A stretch of 51,763 bases of DNA from positions 1-51,763 of IMG/VR virus record IMGVR_UViG_3300045923_000005. One strand, given 5' to 3'. Position numbers and translations under genes: made by a program. The notes beneath the pieces were generated by a model. The model ran no database searches and was not told the DNA's origin. It was given only the letters and a program-made list of their open reading frames with translations. The stretch comes from a virus. Of this stretch, positions 2,314-38,945 are shown in pieces; the stretch's first letter is position 1, and every line of letters begins with the position of its first letter.

Positions 2314-2766
2314 TCAAAACAAGCACGGTTCTGGCAGATGCTCGGTGTACTTGATACCGGCTTGCTGAGGGAGAGCCTTGCTGGCGATGAAACGGGTCTT
2401 CATCTTCTCGTACTTGTCCTTTGGAATCCCGTGGATGGATCCAAACTCGCCCAGGCAAGTGATGATCTCTACCTGGTAGCCGTGCTTGTGACCCAATTCC
2501 ACATAGTCACGGAAGGCGCGCCAGCGGGTGTAGCAACCAACGGCTATCACAGACTTGCCGTCGTTGATCTTGGACAAAACCTGATCATAGCAAAGGTCAA
2601 TAGCTCGGCCCAGCCGTTCCTCTGACCATTCATAGACACCAGCATCGTTGTAGAGGAATTGGTCGGTCTCATGGTAGGTGATACCCTTCTCCTCGGCCAT
2701 TTGGGCCGCAAGAGTAGACTTACCAGAACCTGGCAGGCCTCGGACGATGTAGAGAGTCTTGTTCAT
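2314..2766 (-). CDS. P-loop kinase (polynucleotide kinase-like)
   Basis: A 150-residue protein with a Walker A motif near its start (GLPGSGKST, residues 10-18) followed by HETDQF and later WRAF and YVELGHKHGY segments. These features are typical of the small AAA_33/zeta-toxin-like kinase group that phosphorylates nucleic-acid ends or nucleotides. I start it at ATG 2766 because a promoter (TTTACT-17-TATAAT) ends 9 nt upstream; a longer frame upstream reads through that promoter. Substrate unknown. Repair of cleaved tRNA is an attractive guess given the tRNA island upstream, but it is not shown by the sequence. Confidence 0.75.
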   Translation of the reverse strand: MNKTLYIVRGLPGSGKSTLAAQMAEEKGITYHETDQFLYNDAGVYEWSEERLGRAIDLCYDQVLSKINDGKSVIAVGCYTRWRAFRDYVELGHKHGYQVEIITCLGEFGSIHGIPKDKYEKMKTRFIASKALPQQAGIKYTEHLPEPCLF

Positions 2767-2775
2767 ATGACGACT

Positions 2776-2804
2776 ATTATACTCGAACACAGCACAGAAG
2801 TAAA
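2776..2804 (-). promoter_or_regulatory. sigma70-like promoter for the kinase gene
   Basis: Minus strand: TTTACT (2799-2804), 17-nt spacer, GAGTATAATAG (-10 at 2776-2781), then ATG 9 nt further. It belongs to the family whose consensus is TTTACT-CTTA-N-GAGTATAATAG. Confidence 0.8.
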
Positions 2805-2863
2805 GTGTGACCAAAATACCAGCAGAAATGGTGATTAAGGTGAGCATGGAGCTCCTGGAAGGT

Positions 2864-3178
2864 TTAGAGTTTGATCGTTCGATTTCCTATCGCTAGACCA
2901 ATATTGCCACCTGTGATGTGGATCACAGTTCCCATCTTGAAGAAGACCTTGACTAGCTTGCCGTTATTTAGCGCGTTGGTGAAAACAAGTTCCAAGCGAC
3001 TGTTTTTAGTGGCTTCCAAACTTTCATCAAAGTGAATCAATGCGCCACCAATTGAAAGGTTGAGAACTTTCCCCCAAAGACGTTTGCCATCTTTGATGAC
3101 CATGACGGCTACGTGATTGTGTAGGGTCATGTTGCGCTGCCGGGAGCGCTTCTCCGTCCACTTGATCATCGGAAGCAT
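2864..3178 (-). CDS. PilZ-like domain protein
   Basis: A 104-residue single-domain protein. Near the N-terminus it has RSRQR (R11 to R15, the RxxxR half of the PilZ signature), and later NLSIGG (residues 40-45, matching [D/N]xSxxG). These are the two motifs that contact cyclic di-GMP in PilZ proteins. The remainder alternates like a six-strand barrel. ATG 3178 is preceded by AAGGA. It starts 14 nt after the 3' end of a tRNA-Thr gene, so it probably shares that transcript. Whether it binds c-di-GMP or is a degenerate barrel is not determinable here. Confidence 0.65.
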   Translation of the reverse strand: MLPMIKWTEKRSRQRNMTLHNHVAVMVIKDGKRLWGKVLNLSIGGALIHFDESLEATKNSRLELVFTNALNNGKLVKVFFKMGTVIHITGGNIGLAIGNRTIKL

Positions 3179-3192
3179 GCGGATCCTTGAAG

Positions 3193-3267
3193 TGGTGCTC
3201 TGTTAGGGAGTCGAACCCTAGCCTGTTGCTTACGAAACAACTGTGCTACCGGTAACACTTACAGAGC
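3193..3267 (-). tRNA. tRNA-Thr(CGU)
   Basis: Acceptor stem 3197-3203 pairs perfectly with 3261-3267. T arm is taggg/cccta with a normal TTCGACT loop. The anticodon loop TTCGTAA gives CGU (codon ACG). CCA is encoded. Its D arm (GTGTTACCGGTAGCAC) resembles those of tRNA-Trp and the second tRNA-Pro, suggesting common descent. Confidence 0.93.
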
Positions 3268-3282
3268 GTTATCAGATATTTA

Positions 3283-3807
3283 TTAGATCTGTCGGATGAA
3301 CTCTTTGAGACCCATGTTCACTGGATAGATCCGGTTCCGCTGCAAAGTTGTGCGCCGAGTGTATGGTTCATAGACGTGGTGGAAGTTCTTCATCACTTCC
3401 ACCTGCTTAGCATTATACAGATCGGTGGCAACCTTGTGCGCTGCCTGGCGTTCAGCATTCTCTTTGTTCTGTTCATCAGTCAGACGAACTCTGCTCAGCC
3501 ATTGCACATGGTGTAGTGTGGGATACTCAGGACGTGGACCGGTAGCCGGTTCGATGTGTTTCTCCCAGTCGAGCTCCTCATTGGTTTCCTTGTGACGGAG
3601 AACCCTGCGCTCTTCATCTACCATCACGACACAACCAGATTCGTAATCGCTGTCCTTGTCGTCGCGGATCTTGCCCAGGTAGGTGCCCATGCGTACCGAG
3701 ACGCTGTGACTGTAGCCGGTAGTTACGATCAAGACCTTATCACCAACATTGATGATGTGACCTAGATCATTCTCATAGGGAAGTTCAACTGGTTTGCGCA
3801 ATGCCAT
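3283..3807 (-). CDS. unknown phage protein (174 aa)
   Basis: The ATG at 3807 has a GGAG about 6 nt upstream, directly after the 3' end of the RNase P-like RNA. The N-terminal third (residues about 15-75) is strand-rich with VGDKVLIVTTG and MGTYLGKI, reminiscent of an SH3/KOW-type barrel. The C-terminal half is helical and charged. The gene at 4155-4622 has a similar barrel segment, so the two may be distant paralogues. No function assigned. Confidence 0.72.
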   Translation of the reverse strand: MALRKPVELPYENDLGHIINVGDKVLIVTTGYSHSVSVRMGTYLGKIRDDKDSDYESGCVVMVDEERRVLRHKETNEELDWEKHIEPATGPRPEYPTLHHVQWLSRVRLTDEQNKENAERQAAHKVATDLYNAKQVEVMKNFHHVYEPYTRRTTLQRNRIYPVNMGLKEFIRQI

Positions 3808-10928: not shown

Positions 10929-10986
10929 AGCCGGGAGGCTTGGCATTTTGGCTCTAATTGCCTGGTGCGAGAGGCCTGTTCCGGCT
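10929..10986 (-). ncRNA. pseudoknot RNA motif, copy 1
   Basis: Closed by AGCCGG/CCGGCT and AGGC/GCCT. Inside, two helices interleave (CTCT/AGAG and GGCA/TGCC), as in an H-type pseudoknot. The core CACCAGGCAATTAGAGCC is repeated at 11844-11902 with different closing stems that still pair. Confidence 0.5.
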
Positions 10987-22298: not shown

Positions 22299-23335
22299 TA
22301 GACTTTACTCCAAGACGAAAGCTTCAGTTGAGCGGTTAGGCCGCTGAACGTGTTAGATTCAATCACCTTCATCAATTCTTTCTGTGTCGTGCCAGCCAGG
22401 ACTGCTTCATTGATGTCCTTGCCTGGGAAACTATTTGGAAGAATACAGACGTCCCAATTGTCTTCCACAATCGAATTTCTTATGGTTTGAACGATCTGAC
22501 GGTTGCGCGGTTCGTTATCAAAGATCAGAACAGGATTGATCCCGAGGGTATCGAACAACCAACCAGCGGCCTTGTTAAGAGCAGAGTCACCTGCTGCGAC
22601 TGCGTTGGACACAAACATGCTGTCGAACTGCCCTTCGGTGACGTAGACGCGGTCCTTGAGGTTGAGGCGATGTAGGCCATACAGCTTACGTCCCTCTCCC
22701 ACCTTGACCACTATATAACGCAACTTCTGATCGGCGAGTGTAAGACTTCGACCACTGACGTTGGTGACCTCTCCCTTAAGATTAGTGAAGCATAAGACCA
22801 ACCGAGGATCGTCTTCCAAAAGAGTATCCTTGCCATGATCAGGGAATTGGTCATCCAGGAATTTCTTGTAGTCGGCCGCAAAGAATATCTCATCCCAGTA
22901 TTCAGTCGGGATTAATCGCTTGGTGACGTATTGACGCGCGTAATGACTATCAGGCAGGCTGCTGATTTTGGGTAGGTCCAACTCGCTAACATGAATACCG
23001 GTACGCTTGGATTCAGGCTCAGGGACTTTCACTGTTGGTTCGACATGCTTCTTCATGTCTTTGAACTTTTCCATGAAATATTCTTTGTGTTTATCAGTAT
23101 CCAAGTGCTTCAGAAACGAATCGAAGTTCGTACTGACGTTACAGTTATGGCACGTGAAGATATAGCCATTGAACTTCTTGCTCTTGGATATGTAGCCACG
23201 AGCCTTTAGCCGGTTCTTCTCCGAGTCACCACAAAAAGGGCAACTGAAGTTGAAGAGATCCTCATTTTTTTGCTTAAAATTACGAAGACGCGCTGATGTC
23301 AGCAATAAATACTTTCTATCCAAATACAAACTCAT
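22298..23335 (-). CDS. DNA primase (T4 gp61 / DnaG type)
   Basis: 345 residues. An N-terminal zinc ribbon (Cys32, Cys35, Cys62, Cys65 in CPFCGDSEKN and TCHNCN) precedes a Toprim domain with YVTEGQFDSM (catalytic Glu234) and IFDNEPRN (Asp273). This order and length match T4-type phage primases, which lay RNA primers with the gp41 helicase. The start overlaps the GIY-YIG gene by 4 nt (ATGA). Confidence 0.92.
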   Translation of the reverse strand: MSLYLDRKYLLLTSARLRNFKQKNEDLFNFSCPFCGDSEKNRLKARGYISKSKKFNGYIFTCHNCNVSTNFDSFLKHLDTDKHKEYFMEKFKDMKKHVEPTVKVPEPESKRTGIHVSELDLPKISSLPDSHYARQYVTKRLIPTEYWDEIFFAADYKKFLDDQFPDHGKDTLLEDDPRLVLCFTNLKGEVTNVSGRSLTLADQKLRYIVVKVGEGRKLYGLHRLNLKDRVYVTEGQFDSMFVSNAVAAGDSALNKAAGWLFDTLGINPVLIFDNEPRNRQIVQTIRNSIVEDNWDVCILPNSFPGKDINEAVLAGTTQKELMKVIESNTFSGLTAQLKLSSWSKV

Positions 23336-23811
23336 AGTATACCTAATCTTCGTTGATTACCCATCATTCTTTCACTTTGGGCTTTCCTCAATTCAATTCG
23401 CTTCATAGGGTTTAATGAACCCTTCTTCGTCTTTGCTATATTTTCTCGGTGACTGTCGCTCTTCTTAACACCTGTTATAGTCTTTGAATGTTTGAGATTC
23501 GTTTCTGCGCTTCTCTTGTATCCTCTCATTCCACCCTTACCACCGTCGTTCAAATTCAATAACGGACCGGTGTTCAAATCTTTGCGACCTATTTCTATTA
23601 TGAGTAGATTCTCAAACTCATACGCTTCAAGTTCAATATCAAAGGCTATCAGGCCAACTTGTGGCTCTGTTCCTTCCCTTATGAGTTTCTGTAGTTTCTG
23701 CACGAAAGGATGTTTGTCTTTGCGACGTCTGTGATACGCCACTCGATCCGCAGAACCTTTGCCCACGTAGAACGGGGAATTGTTATGGGAATAGATATAG
23801 ACGTAGAACAT
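23332..23811 (-). CDS. GIY-YIG homing-type endonuclease
   Basis: 159 residues from ATG 23811, chosen because a TATAAT box ends 7 nt upstream; a longer frame would read through the promoter. MFYVYIYSHNNSPFYVGKGS is the GIY-YIG core with the Arg a little further on (RVAYHRRR), then ENLLIIEIGRKDL with the catalytic Glu region. The C-terminus has NUMOD3-like repeats (GVKKSDSHRENIAKTKKGS). It lies just before the primase start and shares an ATGA with it. Confidence 0.88.
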   Translation of the reverse strand: MFYVYIYSHNNSPFYVGKGSADRVAYHRRRKDKHPFVQKLQKLIREGTEPQVGLIAFDIELEAYEFENLLIIEIGRKDLNTGPLLNLNDGGKGGMRGYKRSAETNLKHSKTITGVKKSDSHRENIAKTKKGSLNPMKRIELRKAQSERMMGNQRRLGIL

Positions 23812-23818
23812 TACCTCT

Positions 23819-23847
23819 ATTATACGCGGGTTTTGTATAAGAGTAAG
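23819..23847 (-). promoter_or_regulatory. sigma70-like promoter for GIY-YIG and primase
   Basis: CTTACT (23842-23847), CTTATAC in a 17-nt spacer and GCGTATAATAGAGGTAATG: the -10 box (23819-23824) is 7 nt from the ATG, and the intervening AGAGG could also serve as a ribosome site. Confidence 0.72.
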
Positions 23848-24000
23848 GTATGAGTGGGTGAGTATGAGTGCGCCGGTCATGAACGGAACGGAACTTACAG
23901 ACGCATTTTATACAAACTGAAGAGGCTAAATGGAGTGTTCAGACCCTGGTATCACGTGCCACCAAAGTCCCACCATACACATGTATATAGTCTTTTGACC

Positions 24001-24477
24001 TTAAGAGTTAAACAGAGTAGCGAATATACCCCATTTGTGGGTAATGATGCCTGCGGCAAAGGCGAAAGCGAATGCGATGATCTTCCAATAGTTCACAAGC
24101 CAATCAACAATAGCCCCAAAGCCCACCTTGTGTGGTTTGGATTCAGTTGGGTTCATCAGATTGGTCTTCAAGTCTTCCACTGCCTTGACTACGTCGTCGA
24201 TTTTCTCGACGGCCTGTCTCATAGCTTCTTTGGTTTCGTTGCGACGTTCTTCGATCAATAGCTCGACGCGGTCGTTGGTCTCGGCTTGTGTGGCAAACTT
24301 CTCCTCATGGATTGAAACCATGCGGTGCATAGATTGCGCAAGCTCGTGGATACCGTCAACGGTCCTATCAAGCTTATCCAAGATCTTGGTCTGAATTTCA
24401 TTGTCCCTTTTTAGAACACTGACATCCAGATCAATACCATGAATCTTTTCGTTGAGTGCGTCGTTATCCAGTGGCAT
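24001..24477 (-). CDS. coiled-coil protein with C-terminal membrane helix (XhlA-like)
   Basis: 158 residues: about 110 residues of heptad-like helix (VSVLKRDNEIQTKILDKLDR) and one C-terminal transmembrane helix (YWKIIAFAFAFAAGIITHKW). This architecture recalls XhlA-type lysis accessory proteins. It overlaps the o-spanin gene by 14 nt in the lysis cassette, supporting a role in lysis or in tethering to the inner membrane; that is inferred from context. Confidence 0.7.
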   Translation of the reverse strand: MPLDNDALNEKIHGIDLDVSVLKRDNEIQTKILDKLDRTVDGIHELAQSMHRMVSIHEEKFATQAETNDRVELLIEERRNETKEAMRQAVEKIDDVVKAVEDLKTNLMNPTESKPHKVGFGAIVDWLVNYWKIIAFAFAFAAGIITHKWGIFATLFNS

Positions 24478-35335: not shown

Positions 35336-35544
35336 TTAGCGAAACCAGGTGGAATAGGGTTGGTTACAGTTTCTTTCTCTATCATCTTGATTATGTCTTC
35401 GGTGAGTTTAAGTTCTGCTCGGAGGATCTTGAGTTTTACCTCAAGCTCTTTCTTGCGTTCACCGTATCTTTTCAATTCCTCAATTTGACGCTTGCGCATT
35501 TCGCGCGCGCTACTCAGGAGGATGATAGTTACTTGATTCTCCAT
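35332..35544 (-). CDS. small coiled-coil protein (70 aa)
   Basis: Basic coiled coil (REMRKRQIEELKRYGERKKE) with a hydrophobic N-terminus and a short C-terminal tail. AAGG directly precedes its ATG, and it begins 7 nt after the helicase stop. Function unknown. Confidence 0.65.
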   Translation of the reverse strand: MENQVTIILLSSAREMRKRQIEELKRYGERKKELEVKLKILRAELKLTEDIIKMIEKETVTNPIPPGFAK

Positions 35545-35551
35545 CCTTTAT

Positions 35552-36997
35552 TTAGCTGAAGCGATTGATGGGTCCTGAATCCTCCGGTGCACCTAGATTA
35601 CGGAACTTGTCAAAGGTAGACTTCCCTCGGAACACACTCCCATTAAGTCCGCTCTGTGCTTCATCAGCATCACGATCCAATTGGTTGGCATCAACCAAGG
35701 TCTGCTCTTCTGGGCCCACATCATATAGACGCATCTTGTGGCGATTGACGCCTAAGACGAACCGACGATTCTCATTGACATCATTGTCGCGGTTCTTGAT
35801 CTGTTTGATCACAATCTGCTTGAGCTTGGCTAGTTCCTCGCTCGTGATGATTGCCCACATGTTGTCCACGGTAGCCGGTAGACCGAAACTCTCGCTCGTA
35901 TCTGTCATATCAGGATCAGAGTTAGTAGCACCAGAACGGGTTGTCTGAGTCGCTGTGATGATAGGAAGATTGAACTCCATCGCCAACCCTCGCATTTCTT
36001 CCGCTATGCTCTTGATCAGAGTGTAGCTGTTAACGCTATTGCCTAACTTCAACCGGCTGCTAGAGCAGATGTTGATGTAGTCGATGATCACGATGTCCGG
36101 CCGGAACTGCTTCTTCATAGCTAGTTCATTCAGGAGTGCACGGAAGTGATTACAACCGGCAGCTGCTGTAGGATATTCCTTAACAACCAGTTTACCCTTA
36201 TACTTGGACTTCATCTGTTCGACTTTACTGTCGAAGGCTTTCTTGGACATCTTCTTGATGTCCGCCATCTCCACATCCATCAGGTTCGCGTCAATACGCA
36301 TGGCGATCTTCTCTTGCGCCATTTCCATTGTGATGTATAGAACGTTGAAGTGCTGCGCCAAGAACGCGGCAGCAAAGTGACACATCATCAAACTCTTACC
36401 CGCATTTGGTGGAGCAAGAATACAGGTAAGGGTCTTTGGTTCAAGACCGCCACCGGTAATACGGTTGAAGAAGTCTAGGTCAAATGGATATTTCTTAGAC
36501 GTCCTGTGATAGAACGCATAACGCGCATCAGCATCGTCTAGATAGTCGTGGCCGACGTTTGGGTCGAAGGTGACGGCGAGCGCGTCCTGGAGGATCTGAG
36601 GGATGCTACCCTTATCCTTCTTGGACTTACCCTCCATGATCTGGATTGACTCAGAGACGCCATTATAGAGAGCCTTCTCTTGACAGAACTTCTCTGTTGC
36701 GTCAGCTAGCCATGCTTGGTCGGTTTCTTGCTCGTCATTTGTGATGACGTCAATCAGTTCATGGATGCCCGCGAGCTCGGTGTCGAAAACATCATTGCGG
36801 TTATCAACGTTGATATTGATAGCCGCAGGGTCAGGGACCACATTGTACTTATTGACGTATTCAAGGATCTCCTCGAAAACAACCTTGTCGGCTTTTTCGT
36901 GGAAGTAGTCAGGCTTAAGGTACGGGAGAGCCTTTCGAAGAAATGGTTCTTTCTTCAGTAGGTTCTTGAGGATTATCTGTTCCATCTTCTGCATCAT
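35552..36997 (-). CDS. replicative DNA helicase (T4 gp41 / DnaB type)
   Basis: 481 residues, RecA-fold hexameric helicase: Walker A APPNAGKSL (195-203), Walker B region DIVIIDYINIC, and TQTTRSGATNSDPDMTDTSE (motif H3). The N-terminal 100 residues form the primase-interacting domain. The start codon lies in a 17-bp block (MMQKMEQ) that is repeated at the far end of the inserted GIY-YIG gene. Confidence 0.94.
   Translation of the reverse strand: MMQKMEQIILKNLLKKEPFLRKALPYLKPDYFHEKADKVVFEEILEYVNKYNVVPDPAAININVDNRNDVFDTELAGIHELIDVITNDEQETDQAWLADATEKFCQEKALYNGVSESIQIMEGKSKKDKGSIPQILQDALAVTFDPNVGHDYLDDADARYAFYHRTSKKYPFDLDFFNRITGGGLEPKTLTCILAPPNAGKSLMMCHFAAAFLAQHFNVLYITMEMAQEKIAMRIDANLMDVEMADIKKMSKKAFDSKVEQMKSKYKGKLVVKEYPTAAAGCNHFRALLNELAMKKQFRPDIVIIDYINICSSSRLKLGNSVNSYTLIKSIAEEMRGLAMEFNLPIITATQTTRSGATNSDPDMTDTSESFGLPATVDNMWAIITSEELAKLKQIVIKQIKNRDNDVNENRRFVLGVNRHKMRLYDVGPEEQTLVDANQLDRDADEAQSGLNGSVFRGKSTFDKFRNLGAPEDSGPINRFS
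36981..36997 (-). repeat. 17-bp direct repeat at the helicase start
   Basis: tccatcttctgcatcat recurs at 37508-37524, flanking the GIY-YIG gene. Here it encodes the helicase start MMQKME. Confidence 0.85.
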
Positions 36998-37527
36998 GAT
37001 CTTCTCTTTGCTGCTTCTGATAGCCGGTGACGGTGCTCTGCGCTAAACCGGCGACCCTTCAGAGCGTTGGATATGGCAATTTTGGTCTCATCAGATTGCT
37101 TCTGACCAAAACGTGGATTCAGTTCACCTGAACGATTTACACCATACATCGGGTTACCTCCACCCTTATACTTTATGCTTATATGCGCCCTGGTAGAAGC
37201 CGCTACGATTCTTCCCACCGCGCCGTTGCCACCCGATGTTCTATTCATCAAGGTGCCGGAGCCTTTATCCAATCTACCAAAAGCTGATATCAACATACGT
37301 TCCATCCAGAACGATGCTGATTCGTTTACAGTCATGATTATTTCAACGTCGGTTTCACCCGTCAAACGAGGATTTGTCTTCAGGTGATCCAAGAAGCGGA
37401 GCCCGGTTCCTTTACCCACGTAAAATGGCGTTTCGTCTGAAAATATGTAAACATAGGAACTATTCTTTAGTTCGCTCTTCAACTGGTTCTTCAACGATAC
37501 CAGCGTCTCCATCTTCTGCATCATCAC
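36994..37527 (-). CDS. GIY-YIG endonuclease inserted before the helicase
   Basis: 177 residues as read; the core starts near SSYVYIFSDETPFYVGKGTG (GIY-YIG), with RFLDHLKTNP and ASFWMERMLISAFGRLD further on, and NUMOD3-like repeats at the C-terminus. The first about 20 residues come from the 17-bp duplicated block and the overlapping upstream gene, so the true start may be internal. Inserted between a T4-like gene and gp41. Confidence 0.88.
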   Translation of the reverse strand: MMMQKMETLVSLKNQLKSELKNSSYVYIFSDETPFYVGKGTGLRFLDHLKTNPRLTGETDVEIIMTVNESASFWMERMLISAFGRLDKGSGTLMNRTSGGNGAVGRIVAASTRAHISIKYKGGGNPMYGVNRSGELNPRFGQKQSDETKIAISNALKGRRFSAEHRHRLSEAAKRRS

Positions 37528-37879
37528 TCAACTCCTCATTATTCAATCCACCAACGTAGTTTGGAGTCACTTGGCCCAATACGACCATTATGATCTCTCC
37601 TACTATATCTGTGAACTGATGCCTCGCATAATATGAATCGTGTACACCCGGCTGCTTGCGTAGAATCTTGTGCTCGAACTCACATCGCCCATAGTCATCT
37701 AGAATCTTAAACTCTGTGATGGTGAATATCGTTCCAGCGAACGGTCCTTGAAGTATCTCAATCGGCAGCAACCCTTCTGAGTGGTCGTCTGCCGGCTTGA
37801 AATAGACGTTCTTAGAATATTTCTTCTCACGTCTTCCCTTCAGGAACTTTTCAATTACACCATACAGCCAATTAATCAT
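37460..37879 (-). CDS. unknown T4-like protein (139 aa)
   Basis: From ATG 37879, overlapping the UvsX stop by 8 nt. IEILQGPFAGTIFTITEFKI and KILRKQPGVHDSYYARHQF form a compact alpha/beta domain; the acidic C-terminus (EELSDDAEDGDAGIVEEPVE) overlaps the GIY-YIG frame. Seen next to uvsX in related phages as far as I recall; role unknown. Confidence 0.65.
   Translation of the reverse strand: MINWLYGVIEKFLKGRREKKYSKNVYFKPADDHSEGLLPIEILQGPFAGTIFTITEFKILDDYGRCEFEHKILRKQPGVHDSYYARHQFTDIVGEIIMVVLGQVTPNYVGGLNNEELSDDAEDGDAGIVEEPVEERTKE
37508..37524 (-). repeat. 17-bp direct repeat, second copy
   Basis: Same block as 36981-36997, here inside the C-terminal codons of the gene at 37460-37879 (DDAEDG). 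A target duplication would have preserved both reading frames when the GIY-YIG gene was inserted. Confidence 0.85.
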
Positions 37880-38945
37880 TGTCTTCGACCACCGGAGGAG
37901 TATCCTCGGAGTAGATGCTCTTGTTGCCAATGCTGTAGGTATCCTTGACCCACTGCTGGAACGTTGCATCTTTCACTACCTCGGCCAAATGTTCCTGCGC
38001 GTCTTTCTTGAGGAACTTCTTCGTGCCGATGACTTTCATCTCTCCTGTCGTCTTGTCAAGTTGCGCCAGCTGATACCAAGTACCACCGGTCTGCACAACA
38101 TGCCCAGACTCCAGGGCCATATCTAGTATACCTGAGTATTTGTTAATACCATCCTGAAAATTTACTGAGACTGGAATACGACTCTTTTCACGGACATATC
38201 GACTCTTCTCGACATTGATGATGAAATCGTAGCCTAAGAGTTCAGTCTCTTTCTTGTTCTGTTGACGACCAACGATGAAGATATTGTCAGCAGAGTAGTA
38301 AGGTCCTGTGCCACCAGAGACGATTGCCTTGGGGAACATACCCTGCTCCATATAGATGTGGTTGACCACAACCATAGGGATGTCCTTGATGTTCAGGTGA
38401 GGAGTAACCATGCGGAACAAACTCTTGATCTGCTTGGCGCGCGTCATATCAGCAACGCTCTTACCGGCTTCGGCGTCCTCTACTTCTTTCTTGGAAGCAA
38501 GGTTGCCGATGGAGTCAACCGCGATGAAGAGCTTGTCTCCGCGGTTTACTTCCTTTAGCTGAGCCATGATGTCGAACTTAAGTTGTTCAAGATCCGTGAT
38601 AGGACTGTGAACAACACGCTTCATGTCGACACCAAAGTTCTCGAAGTAGCTCTTTGGTGTGCCGAACTCAGAATCGTAGAATAGGACGATGGCGTCCTTA
38701 TACATCTGCTGGTAGGCGCGCATTTGGATCAGTGTGAAAGCAGTTTTGAAGTGCTTGGATGGACCTGCCCACATCGTCAGACCGGGAGCGAATCCACCTG
38801 TGAGGTCGGCGCTCAGAGCGATGTCTAGAGCATATATGCCGGTAGAAACTAGGTCCTTCTTGTTGAAGAACTTTGATCCTGACAGCGTATCGCTTTCTTC
38901 GATGGTGCTGTTCTTGCGTATCTTTTCTAGGAGTTTGTTAGCCAT
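37872..38945 (-). CDS. uvsX: UvsX-type recombinase (RecA family)
   Basis: 357 residues. Walker A is the T4-type GPSKHFKT (61-68) rather than the GPESSGKT form of bacterial RecA. IAVDSIGNLASKKE (Walker B) and VSGGTGPYYSADNIFIVGRQ follow. It forms the strand-exchange filament for recombination-dependent replication, with helicase and polymerase genes alongside. Confidence 0.93.
   Translation of the reverse strand: MANKLLEKIRKNSTIEESDTLSGSKFFNKKDLVSTGIYALDIALSADLTGGFAPGLTMWAGPSKHFKTAFTLIQMRAYQQMYKDAIVLFYDSEFGTPKSYFENFGVDMKRVVHSPITDLEQLKFDIMAQLKEVNRGDKLFIAVDSIGNLASKKEVEDAEAGKSVADMTRAKQIKSLFRMVTPHLNIKDIPMVVVNHIYMEQGMFPKAIVSGGTGPYYSADNIFIVGRQQNKKETELLGYDFIINVEKSRYVREKSRIPVSVNFQDGINKYSGILDMALESGHVVQTGGTWYQLAQLDKTTGEMKVIGTKKFLKKDAQEHLAEVVKDATFQQWVKDTYSIGNKSIYSEDTPPVVEDND

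Follow-up and report, generated by a model that had tools for sequence, protein, structure and literature searches.

How a homing endonuclease gene can come to lie between two genes that leave no room for it is the question raised by the locus described here. Coding in phage genomes is dense and neighbouring genes frequently overlap, so a harmless gap should seldom be available to a free-standing homing endonuclease. The DNA analysed (the window) was the first 51,763 bases of the 115,763-base virus record IMGVR_UViG_3300045923_000005. Its genes follow a T4-like order on the minus strand: a polymerase, which we take to be gp43 from the annotated order in relatives, uvsX, a g40-like gene (139 aa), a GIY-YIG gene, and the gp41 helicase gene (Table 1). 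The g40-like gene was named by its position, after T4 gene 40. As judged from the sequence comparisons below, it is highly likely that a Seg-like gene invaded the overlap between the g40-like gene and gp41 of a T4-like phage, and that approximately 52–55 nt of this overlap now stand on both sides of it, both neighbours being spared.

Table 1 Features of the locus, with positions in the window
Feature	Position	Strand	Basis or remark
UvsX recombinase (context, next gene upstream)	37872..38945	-	Pfam RecA and T4_UVSX_C
g40-like gene, 139 aa, upstream of the helicase gene	37460..37879	-	ORF and translation; relatives by tblastn and profile
Putative left copy of the ancestral overlap (65 nt): end of the g40-like gene and, in the other frame, start of the GIY-YIG gene	37460..37524	-	
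Exact 17-bp repeat, left copy, from the ATG ATG of the GIY-YIG gene	37508..37524	-	
AGGAG, 7 nt 5' of the GIY-YIG ATG	37532..37536	-	Site of the helicase Shine-Dalgarno in relatives
GIY-YIG and NUMOD3 gene, 176 aa, predicted Seg-like free-standing homing endonuclease	36994..37524	-	
Putative right copy of the ancestral overlap, now helicase start only	36946..36997	-	
Exact 17-bp repeat, right copy, from the ATG ATG of the helicase gene	36981..36997	-	
gp41-type DnaB-family replicative helicase, 481 aa	35552..36997	-	Pfam DnaB_C 3.9e-21; tblastn to phage gp41

The 17-bp direct repeat reported in the initial annotation, TCCATCTTCTGCATCAT, was found to be exact at both places (Table 1), with no further exact occurrence in the 115,763-base record. 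Both copies start exactly at an ATG ATG and are read in the same frame, as MMQKME, in the GIY-YIG protein and in the helicase. The minus-strand reading of the left copy in the GIY-YIG protein is MMQKMETLVSLKNQLKSELKN, that of the right copy in the helicase is MMQKMEQIILKNLLKKEPFL, and the second frame of the left copy gives the end of the g40-like protein, DDAEDGDAGIVEEPVEERTKE. The copies had been placed one on each side of the GIY-YIG gene; for the left copy this needs correction, as it is not outside the gene and forms its 5' end. It lies at the end of the upstream gene, as had been stated, inside the g40-like gene and 48 nt before the end of the stop codon. When the left and right copies were aligned over their length, 40 of 55 columns were identical, 23 of 38 beyond the exact 17 bases. 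The repeat that had been taken for the duplicated block is thus real, but on this alignment it is the best-kept portion of a longer block of approximately 52–55 nt.

The complete identity of 17 of 17 bases beside a remainder of 23 of 38 (36946-37524) is not readily explained by one old duplication. Either joining to foreign DNA at this point, similar to the fungal case discussed below, or constraint on two start regions might account for it. A further case of two ORFs, each of at least 80 aa and lying 150–1600 bp apart, that share 13 nt at their ATG start was searched for on both strands of approximately 1.5 Mb, comprising the loci of relatives and the window, after exclusion of fourteen loci that repeat the window's record or other loci; none was found. 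Four exact direct repeats of at least 17 bases within 1 kb, the present one included, were counted in the window; the mean in simulated windows was 0.005 (order 1) or 0.01 (order 2; 200 Markov simulations each). The others, of 17–18 bases, lie at 526-607 and 10950-10967 of the window with spacings of 900 and 917 bp, and two of these three share a single 900-bp spacing.

The best reading of the GIY-YIG gene is a predicted Seg-like free-standing homing endonuclease. Its product matched the homing endonuclease family PHROG 314 (1.6e-13) and has a NUMOD3 motif above the cut-off (PF07460, 1.4e-07). In the Pfam scan of the protein, NUMOD3 alone was matched and no GIY-YIG domain was found at 0.001; an NCBIfam match reached 13.2 bits, far under its cut-off of 56.05. 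UvrC contains a GIY-YIG domain, and a profile of four sequences (the endonuclease and three homologues) matched UvrC and GIY-YIG domain-containing chains with a best E of 0.0015. Residues Y24, Y35, G37, R43, E75, and N94 are invariant in these four sequences. We take them to be the conserved GIY-YIG residues, and the endonuclease is predicted to be active. Its C-terminus is shorter than in the three homologues, and its single-sequence model (pLDDT 40.9) was unusable. Only one partial relative was obtained when the endonuclease was searched against viral contigs.

An ancestor in which the g40-like gene and the helicase gene overlapped across the block had been proposed, and comparison with relatives lacking the insert had been named as the way to check it. 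Such relatives were found in the clade of L090, L172, L173, and L174, of which L090 and L172 are nearly identical. They have no GIY-YIG gene at the junction, the g40-like gene enters the helicase gene in another frame with an overlap of 86–92 nt, and they carry one copy of the block, at the gene overlap, in agreement with the proposal. The overlap is 170 nt in L112, L175, L176, L177, L178, L179, L180, and L181, and no GIY-YIG gene is present at the junction there either.

The arrangement was surveyed in the local set, in which 128 of 177 loci contained the uvsX end as well as the gp41 start (near-identical contigs counted separately; E-values for a database of 127 ORFs). A g40-like ORF was detected by an iterated profile at 106 of the 128 loci and overlapped gp41 at every one of them, by 1–209 nt and in 103 cases by at least 4 nt. 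ORFs in the two non-helicase frames only were counted, and the g40-like gene of L010, which is in the helicase frame, was thus missed. The remaining 22 loci are L010 and 21 whose gp41-adjacent ORF had no profile match; this ORF overlaps gp41 by 1–32 nt in 17 of them and ends 2 nt before it in the other four. No GIY-YIG gene was recognised by eye at eight loci (seven with wide gp41 spacing, plus L011).

In a helicase tree of 34 hand-chosen rows, the window was joined with L010 (100/99), and L090, L172, L173, and L174 were sister to this pair (100/99). Given this tree and the overlap in the sister clade, the ancestor at that node had overlapping genes. The distant phages T4 and Klebsiella phage UPM 2146 have gaps of 9 and 6 nt, respectively, so it is only within the wider clade to which the window belongs that the overlap is ancestral. 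The non-overlapping genes of L010, taken by themselves, seem to contradict the overlapping ancestor, but the genes of the wider relatives overlap.

Both copies in the window were compared with the single-copy overlaps of the relatives, past the 17-mer in each case. The left copy was identical at 26 of 31 positions to L173 and at 25 of 31 to L174, with none of 2000 shuffles as good in either comparison, and at 19 of 25 to L112 (32 of 2000 shuffles as good). The match to L090, 16 of 22, was not significant (297 of 2000), and the window's own right copy was matched at 17 of 22. For the right copy, identities were 44/53 to L173 and 51/66 to L090, and no shuffle of 2000 was as good for L090, L173, L174, or L112. 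When translated in the g40-like frame, the helicase start of the window resembles the end of the L173 g40-like protein (0/5000 shuffles) and that of the L010 protein (1/5000), the latter end being untied from the helicase gene. Two copies of the gene end thus flank the endonuclease, and the host genes are intact.

The same origin is seen at the N-terminus of the endonuclease. Residues 1-21 were compared with the N-terminus of the window's own helicase, and none of 5000 shuffles was as good; for the portion after MMQKME, the shuffles as good per 5000 were 88 for the window, 25 for L010, 33 for L090, 48 for L173, 92 for L174, and 2082 for L112. Residues 1 to approximately 18–21 derive from the left copy. 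In tblastn against sequenced phages, the best place in each of 25 records lacked residues 1-19, beginning from residue 20 or later, and six of seven fetched homologues have their annotated start at window residue 15 or later in gap-free alignment. The seventh, from BcepSaruman, carries its own long N-terminal stretch. As the homologues start later, the extra N-terminal residues in the window are most simply explained as the old helicase start.

The nearest relative found, and the only close one, is L010, a 5,160-base contig (polymerase 78%, helicase 83%). It has no GIY-YIG gene at the junction, its g40-like gene is in the same frame as the helicase gene and separated from it by 9 nt, and it is without the 17-mer. 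The window and L010 were the only non-overlapping g40-like members met in the clade. The putative left copy of L010 contains stops in the old helicase frame, whereas this frame is intact in the window. At the DNA level the L010 left copy matched the overlaps of relatives weakly (shuffles as good: L090 36/2000, L173 208/2000, L174 172/2000, L112 650/2000); at the protein level the match was better, the corresponding numbers being 2/5000, 6/5000, 24/5000, and 67/5000. Since the gene ends are separated here with no endonuclease present, insertion and duplication are not necessarily a single event. The L010 arrangement may be a scar left when the endonuclease was later lost, or it may point to a duplication that preceded the insertion. 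Elsewhere in this contig (2261-4013), uvsX is broken by a split intein-like element, and a small HNH-like ORF (3214-3471) lies between the two parts of the element, an arrangement of the 'fractured gene' type.

In the explanation preferred here, a Seg-like gene would have entered the overlap approximately 18 codons behind the helicase ATG, and repair would have doubled the stretch from this ATG to the insertion point. The left copy would then end the g40-like gene and supply the helicase Shine-Dalgarno, the ATG, and approximately 18 codons to the endonuclease, which would continue the reading frame of the old helicase start. A full helicase gene would be restored by the right copy, its start lying in an ATGA shared with the stop codon of the endonuclease. 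The initial annotation had held that insertion duplicated the block so that neither protein was lost. Both neighbours are indeed intact; that the insertion itself caused the duplication, the two arising together, seems probable, but L010, with its ends separated and no endonuclease, would fit either a later loss of the gene or an earlier duplication.

Two rival explanations agree with this best explanation except on the sequence of events and on where the left copy came from. A plain tandem duplication might have come first, in the ancestor of the window and L010, the endonuclease having settled later between the copies with its frame running back into the left one. This order would fit L010, in which both gene ends stand 9 nt apart with no endonuclease, and the sister relation of the only two non-overlapping members met in the clade, but the unused left start of L010 has decayed, whereas that of the window is intact, in use, and has AGGAG in front. 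An intact frame in the one and stops in the other favour a start in constant endonuclease use, and a duplication preceding the endonuclease is regarded as rather unlikely. It is likewise doubtful that the endonuclease arrived together with a foreign g40-like end, so that the 17 bp would be the join and the diverged remainder the donor's, as in the fungal-mitochondrial type. The exact 17 bp beside a diverged stretch would suit such a junction, the left copy past it is somewhat closer to L173 and L174 (26/31 and 25/31) than it is to the right copy in the window (17/22), and C-terminal duplication of this type has been described (PMC3630166). However, the left copy has too few positions to support a tree. 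Constraint to helicase sequence acts on the right copy and not on the left, a difference that could produce the same pattern, and the searches for relatives yielded no donor phage.

Two further explanations would remove the duplication or the free-standing gene altogether, and both appear very improbable. The 17-bp repeat could be a chance match between a stretch coding for an acidic tail and the helicase start, in keeping with the shortness of the exact match and the lack of the 17-mer in L010; against this, 0.005–0.01 such repeats are expected per window, the copies have a common frame and start codon, and both match the single overlap in relatives. Homing endonucleases are often located in group I introns, inteins, and ribosome-bypass elements, and the insert might belong to an element of one of these kinds in the helicase gene. 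However, positions 35500-38100 had no Rfam match at E up to 1 and hence no known group I intron, a complete helicase gene with a start of its own follows downstream, and the frame of the endonuclease closes at a stop codon that overlaps this gene. The neighbour genes are uninterrupted, and the GIY-YIG gene is not inside an intron or intein.

For the preferred explanation, in which the insertion fell into the overlap, the start signals matter as well. A GAGGT stands 8 nt before the helicase ATG in L090, L172, L173, and L174, and in the window the AGGAG stands in front of the GIY-YIG gene. For the window helicase, the best hit of the scan was GATC directly at the ATG, which is unusable as a Shine-Dalgarno; the L010 helicase has only GAG at 12 nt. 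The stop codon of the GIY-YIG gene lies inside the helicase ATGATG. With no usable Shine-Dalgarno and this ATGA overlap, the helicase is predicted to be started, probably, by translational coupling to the endonuclease.

The two neighbour proteins were compared with their relatives. The helicase aligns over 98% of its length to phage gp41. The g40-like protein aligns over its length to relatives, only its tail being shorter; in a model built with 59 sequences (pLDDT 71.5), residues 107-139, which include the whole overlap, were under 50. The tail is thus shortened, according to the alignment, and probably disordered, according to the model, and a flexible tail can tolerate shortening and drift. 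The g40-like protein had no Pfam match at 0.001 and no NCBIfam match at 0.1, and its model, compared at a limit of E 0.001, gave no hit in the PDB and five hits in a viral library, all of them uncharacterised or unnamed. T4 gp40 was at best a marginal profile match (E 0.0024–0.043 in one-sequence searches). No g40-like relatives were found in sequenced phages with the window or L090 protein as the query, and four records were found with the L138 protein; genome contigs yielded none. An unannotated match to the g40-like family (E 2e-5) was seen between uvsX and gp41 in Pelagibacter phage HTVC008M (L204 1501-1763).

Endonuclease genes in comparable positions are known from T4-like phages, in which the Seg and Mob genes are found either between other genes or interrupting them (PMC2988022). 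Five free-standing endonuclease ORFs described there overlap the upstream ORF, mobE by 1 nt and segC, segF, mobA, and mobC by 11–24 bp, and the cleavage site of a free-standing enzyme may be distant from its own gene (PMC2988022). Like the Seg genes covered in that review, the present gene is an intron-less GIY-YIG gene between conserved genes, but its overlap is 65 nt, consists of what appears to be a second copy of the ancestral overlap, and the gene uses the old start of the neighbour. No word beginning with 'duplicat' occurs in the main text of the review (PMC2988022). Genes-in-pieces, exemplified in it by mobE in Aeh1 nrdA, mobA in T4 gene 60, and seg43 in Aeromonas phage 25, also have a homing endonuclease gene at a functionally important place (PMC2988022). 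They split one protein in two, whereas the host coding region here is not split into two polypeptides and the neighbours are whole, the shared DNA being present twice.

A likeness is also found in fungal mitochondria, in which mobile ORFs with terminal duplication have been described for Glomus atp6, atp9, cox2, and nad3 and Allomyces atp6; the two copies in Glomus atp6 have 63.5% DNA identity (PMC3630166). In the cases described there, as at the present locus, an endonuclease ORF lies between inserted and native copies of a gene end and the host gene survives. In the fungi the C-terminus of one gene is doubled, whereas here it is a two-frame overlap comprising the gene end, the start of the next gene, and the endonuclease start. 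A comparable arrangement is thus already published for fungal mitochondria (PMC3630166), and no phage precedent for a duplicated overlap around an endonuclease gene was found in searches of a library of open-licence papers.

The locus would be the end product of an insertion into an overlap by which neither neighbour was lost, and L010 may be a scar left after loss of the gene. Tentatively, overlap doubling could be a route for a selfish endonuclease into a gapless phage operon. The endonuclease would take the start signal of the essential downstream gene, the helicase would then need endonuclease translation, and simple loss would be penalised until a clean deletion leaves a scar such as that in L010. 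This gives a testable model of how an endonuclease settles in essential operons and of how gene overlaps are undone in evolution.

Further endonuclease genes were noted in the window and beyond it. A second GIY-YIG gene (window 23332-23880, minus strand) lies directly before a primase-like gene, its stop overlapping the ATG of the latter (23332-23335), and in this protein, again, residues precede the usual start (MFYVYIY); no direct repeat of at least 14 bases was found around it in 23100-24300. Imperfect repeats with 77–93% identity were present in the other five endonuclease regions of the record. In L112 (2500-3700), an insertion resembling an intein is present in the helicase gene, and an ORF on its opposite strand (2574-3206) has, by eye, the look of an HNH-type endonuclease. 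Outside the window, the record (G000) has NUMOD3-like matches at 84554-85953, above the cut-off, and at 68892, 54401, and 104304, below it, which suggests that the phage carries more predicted endonuclease genes.
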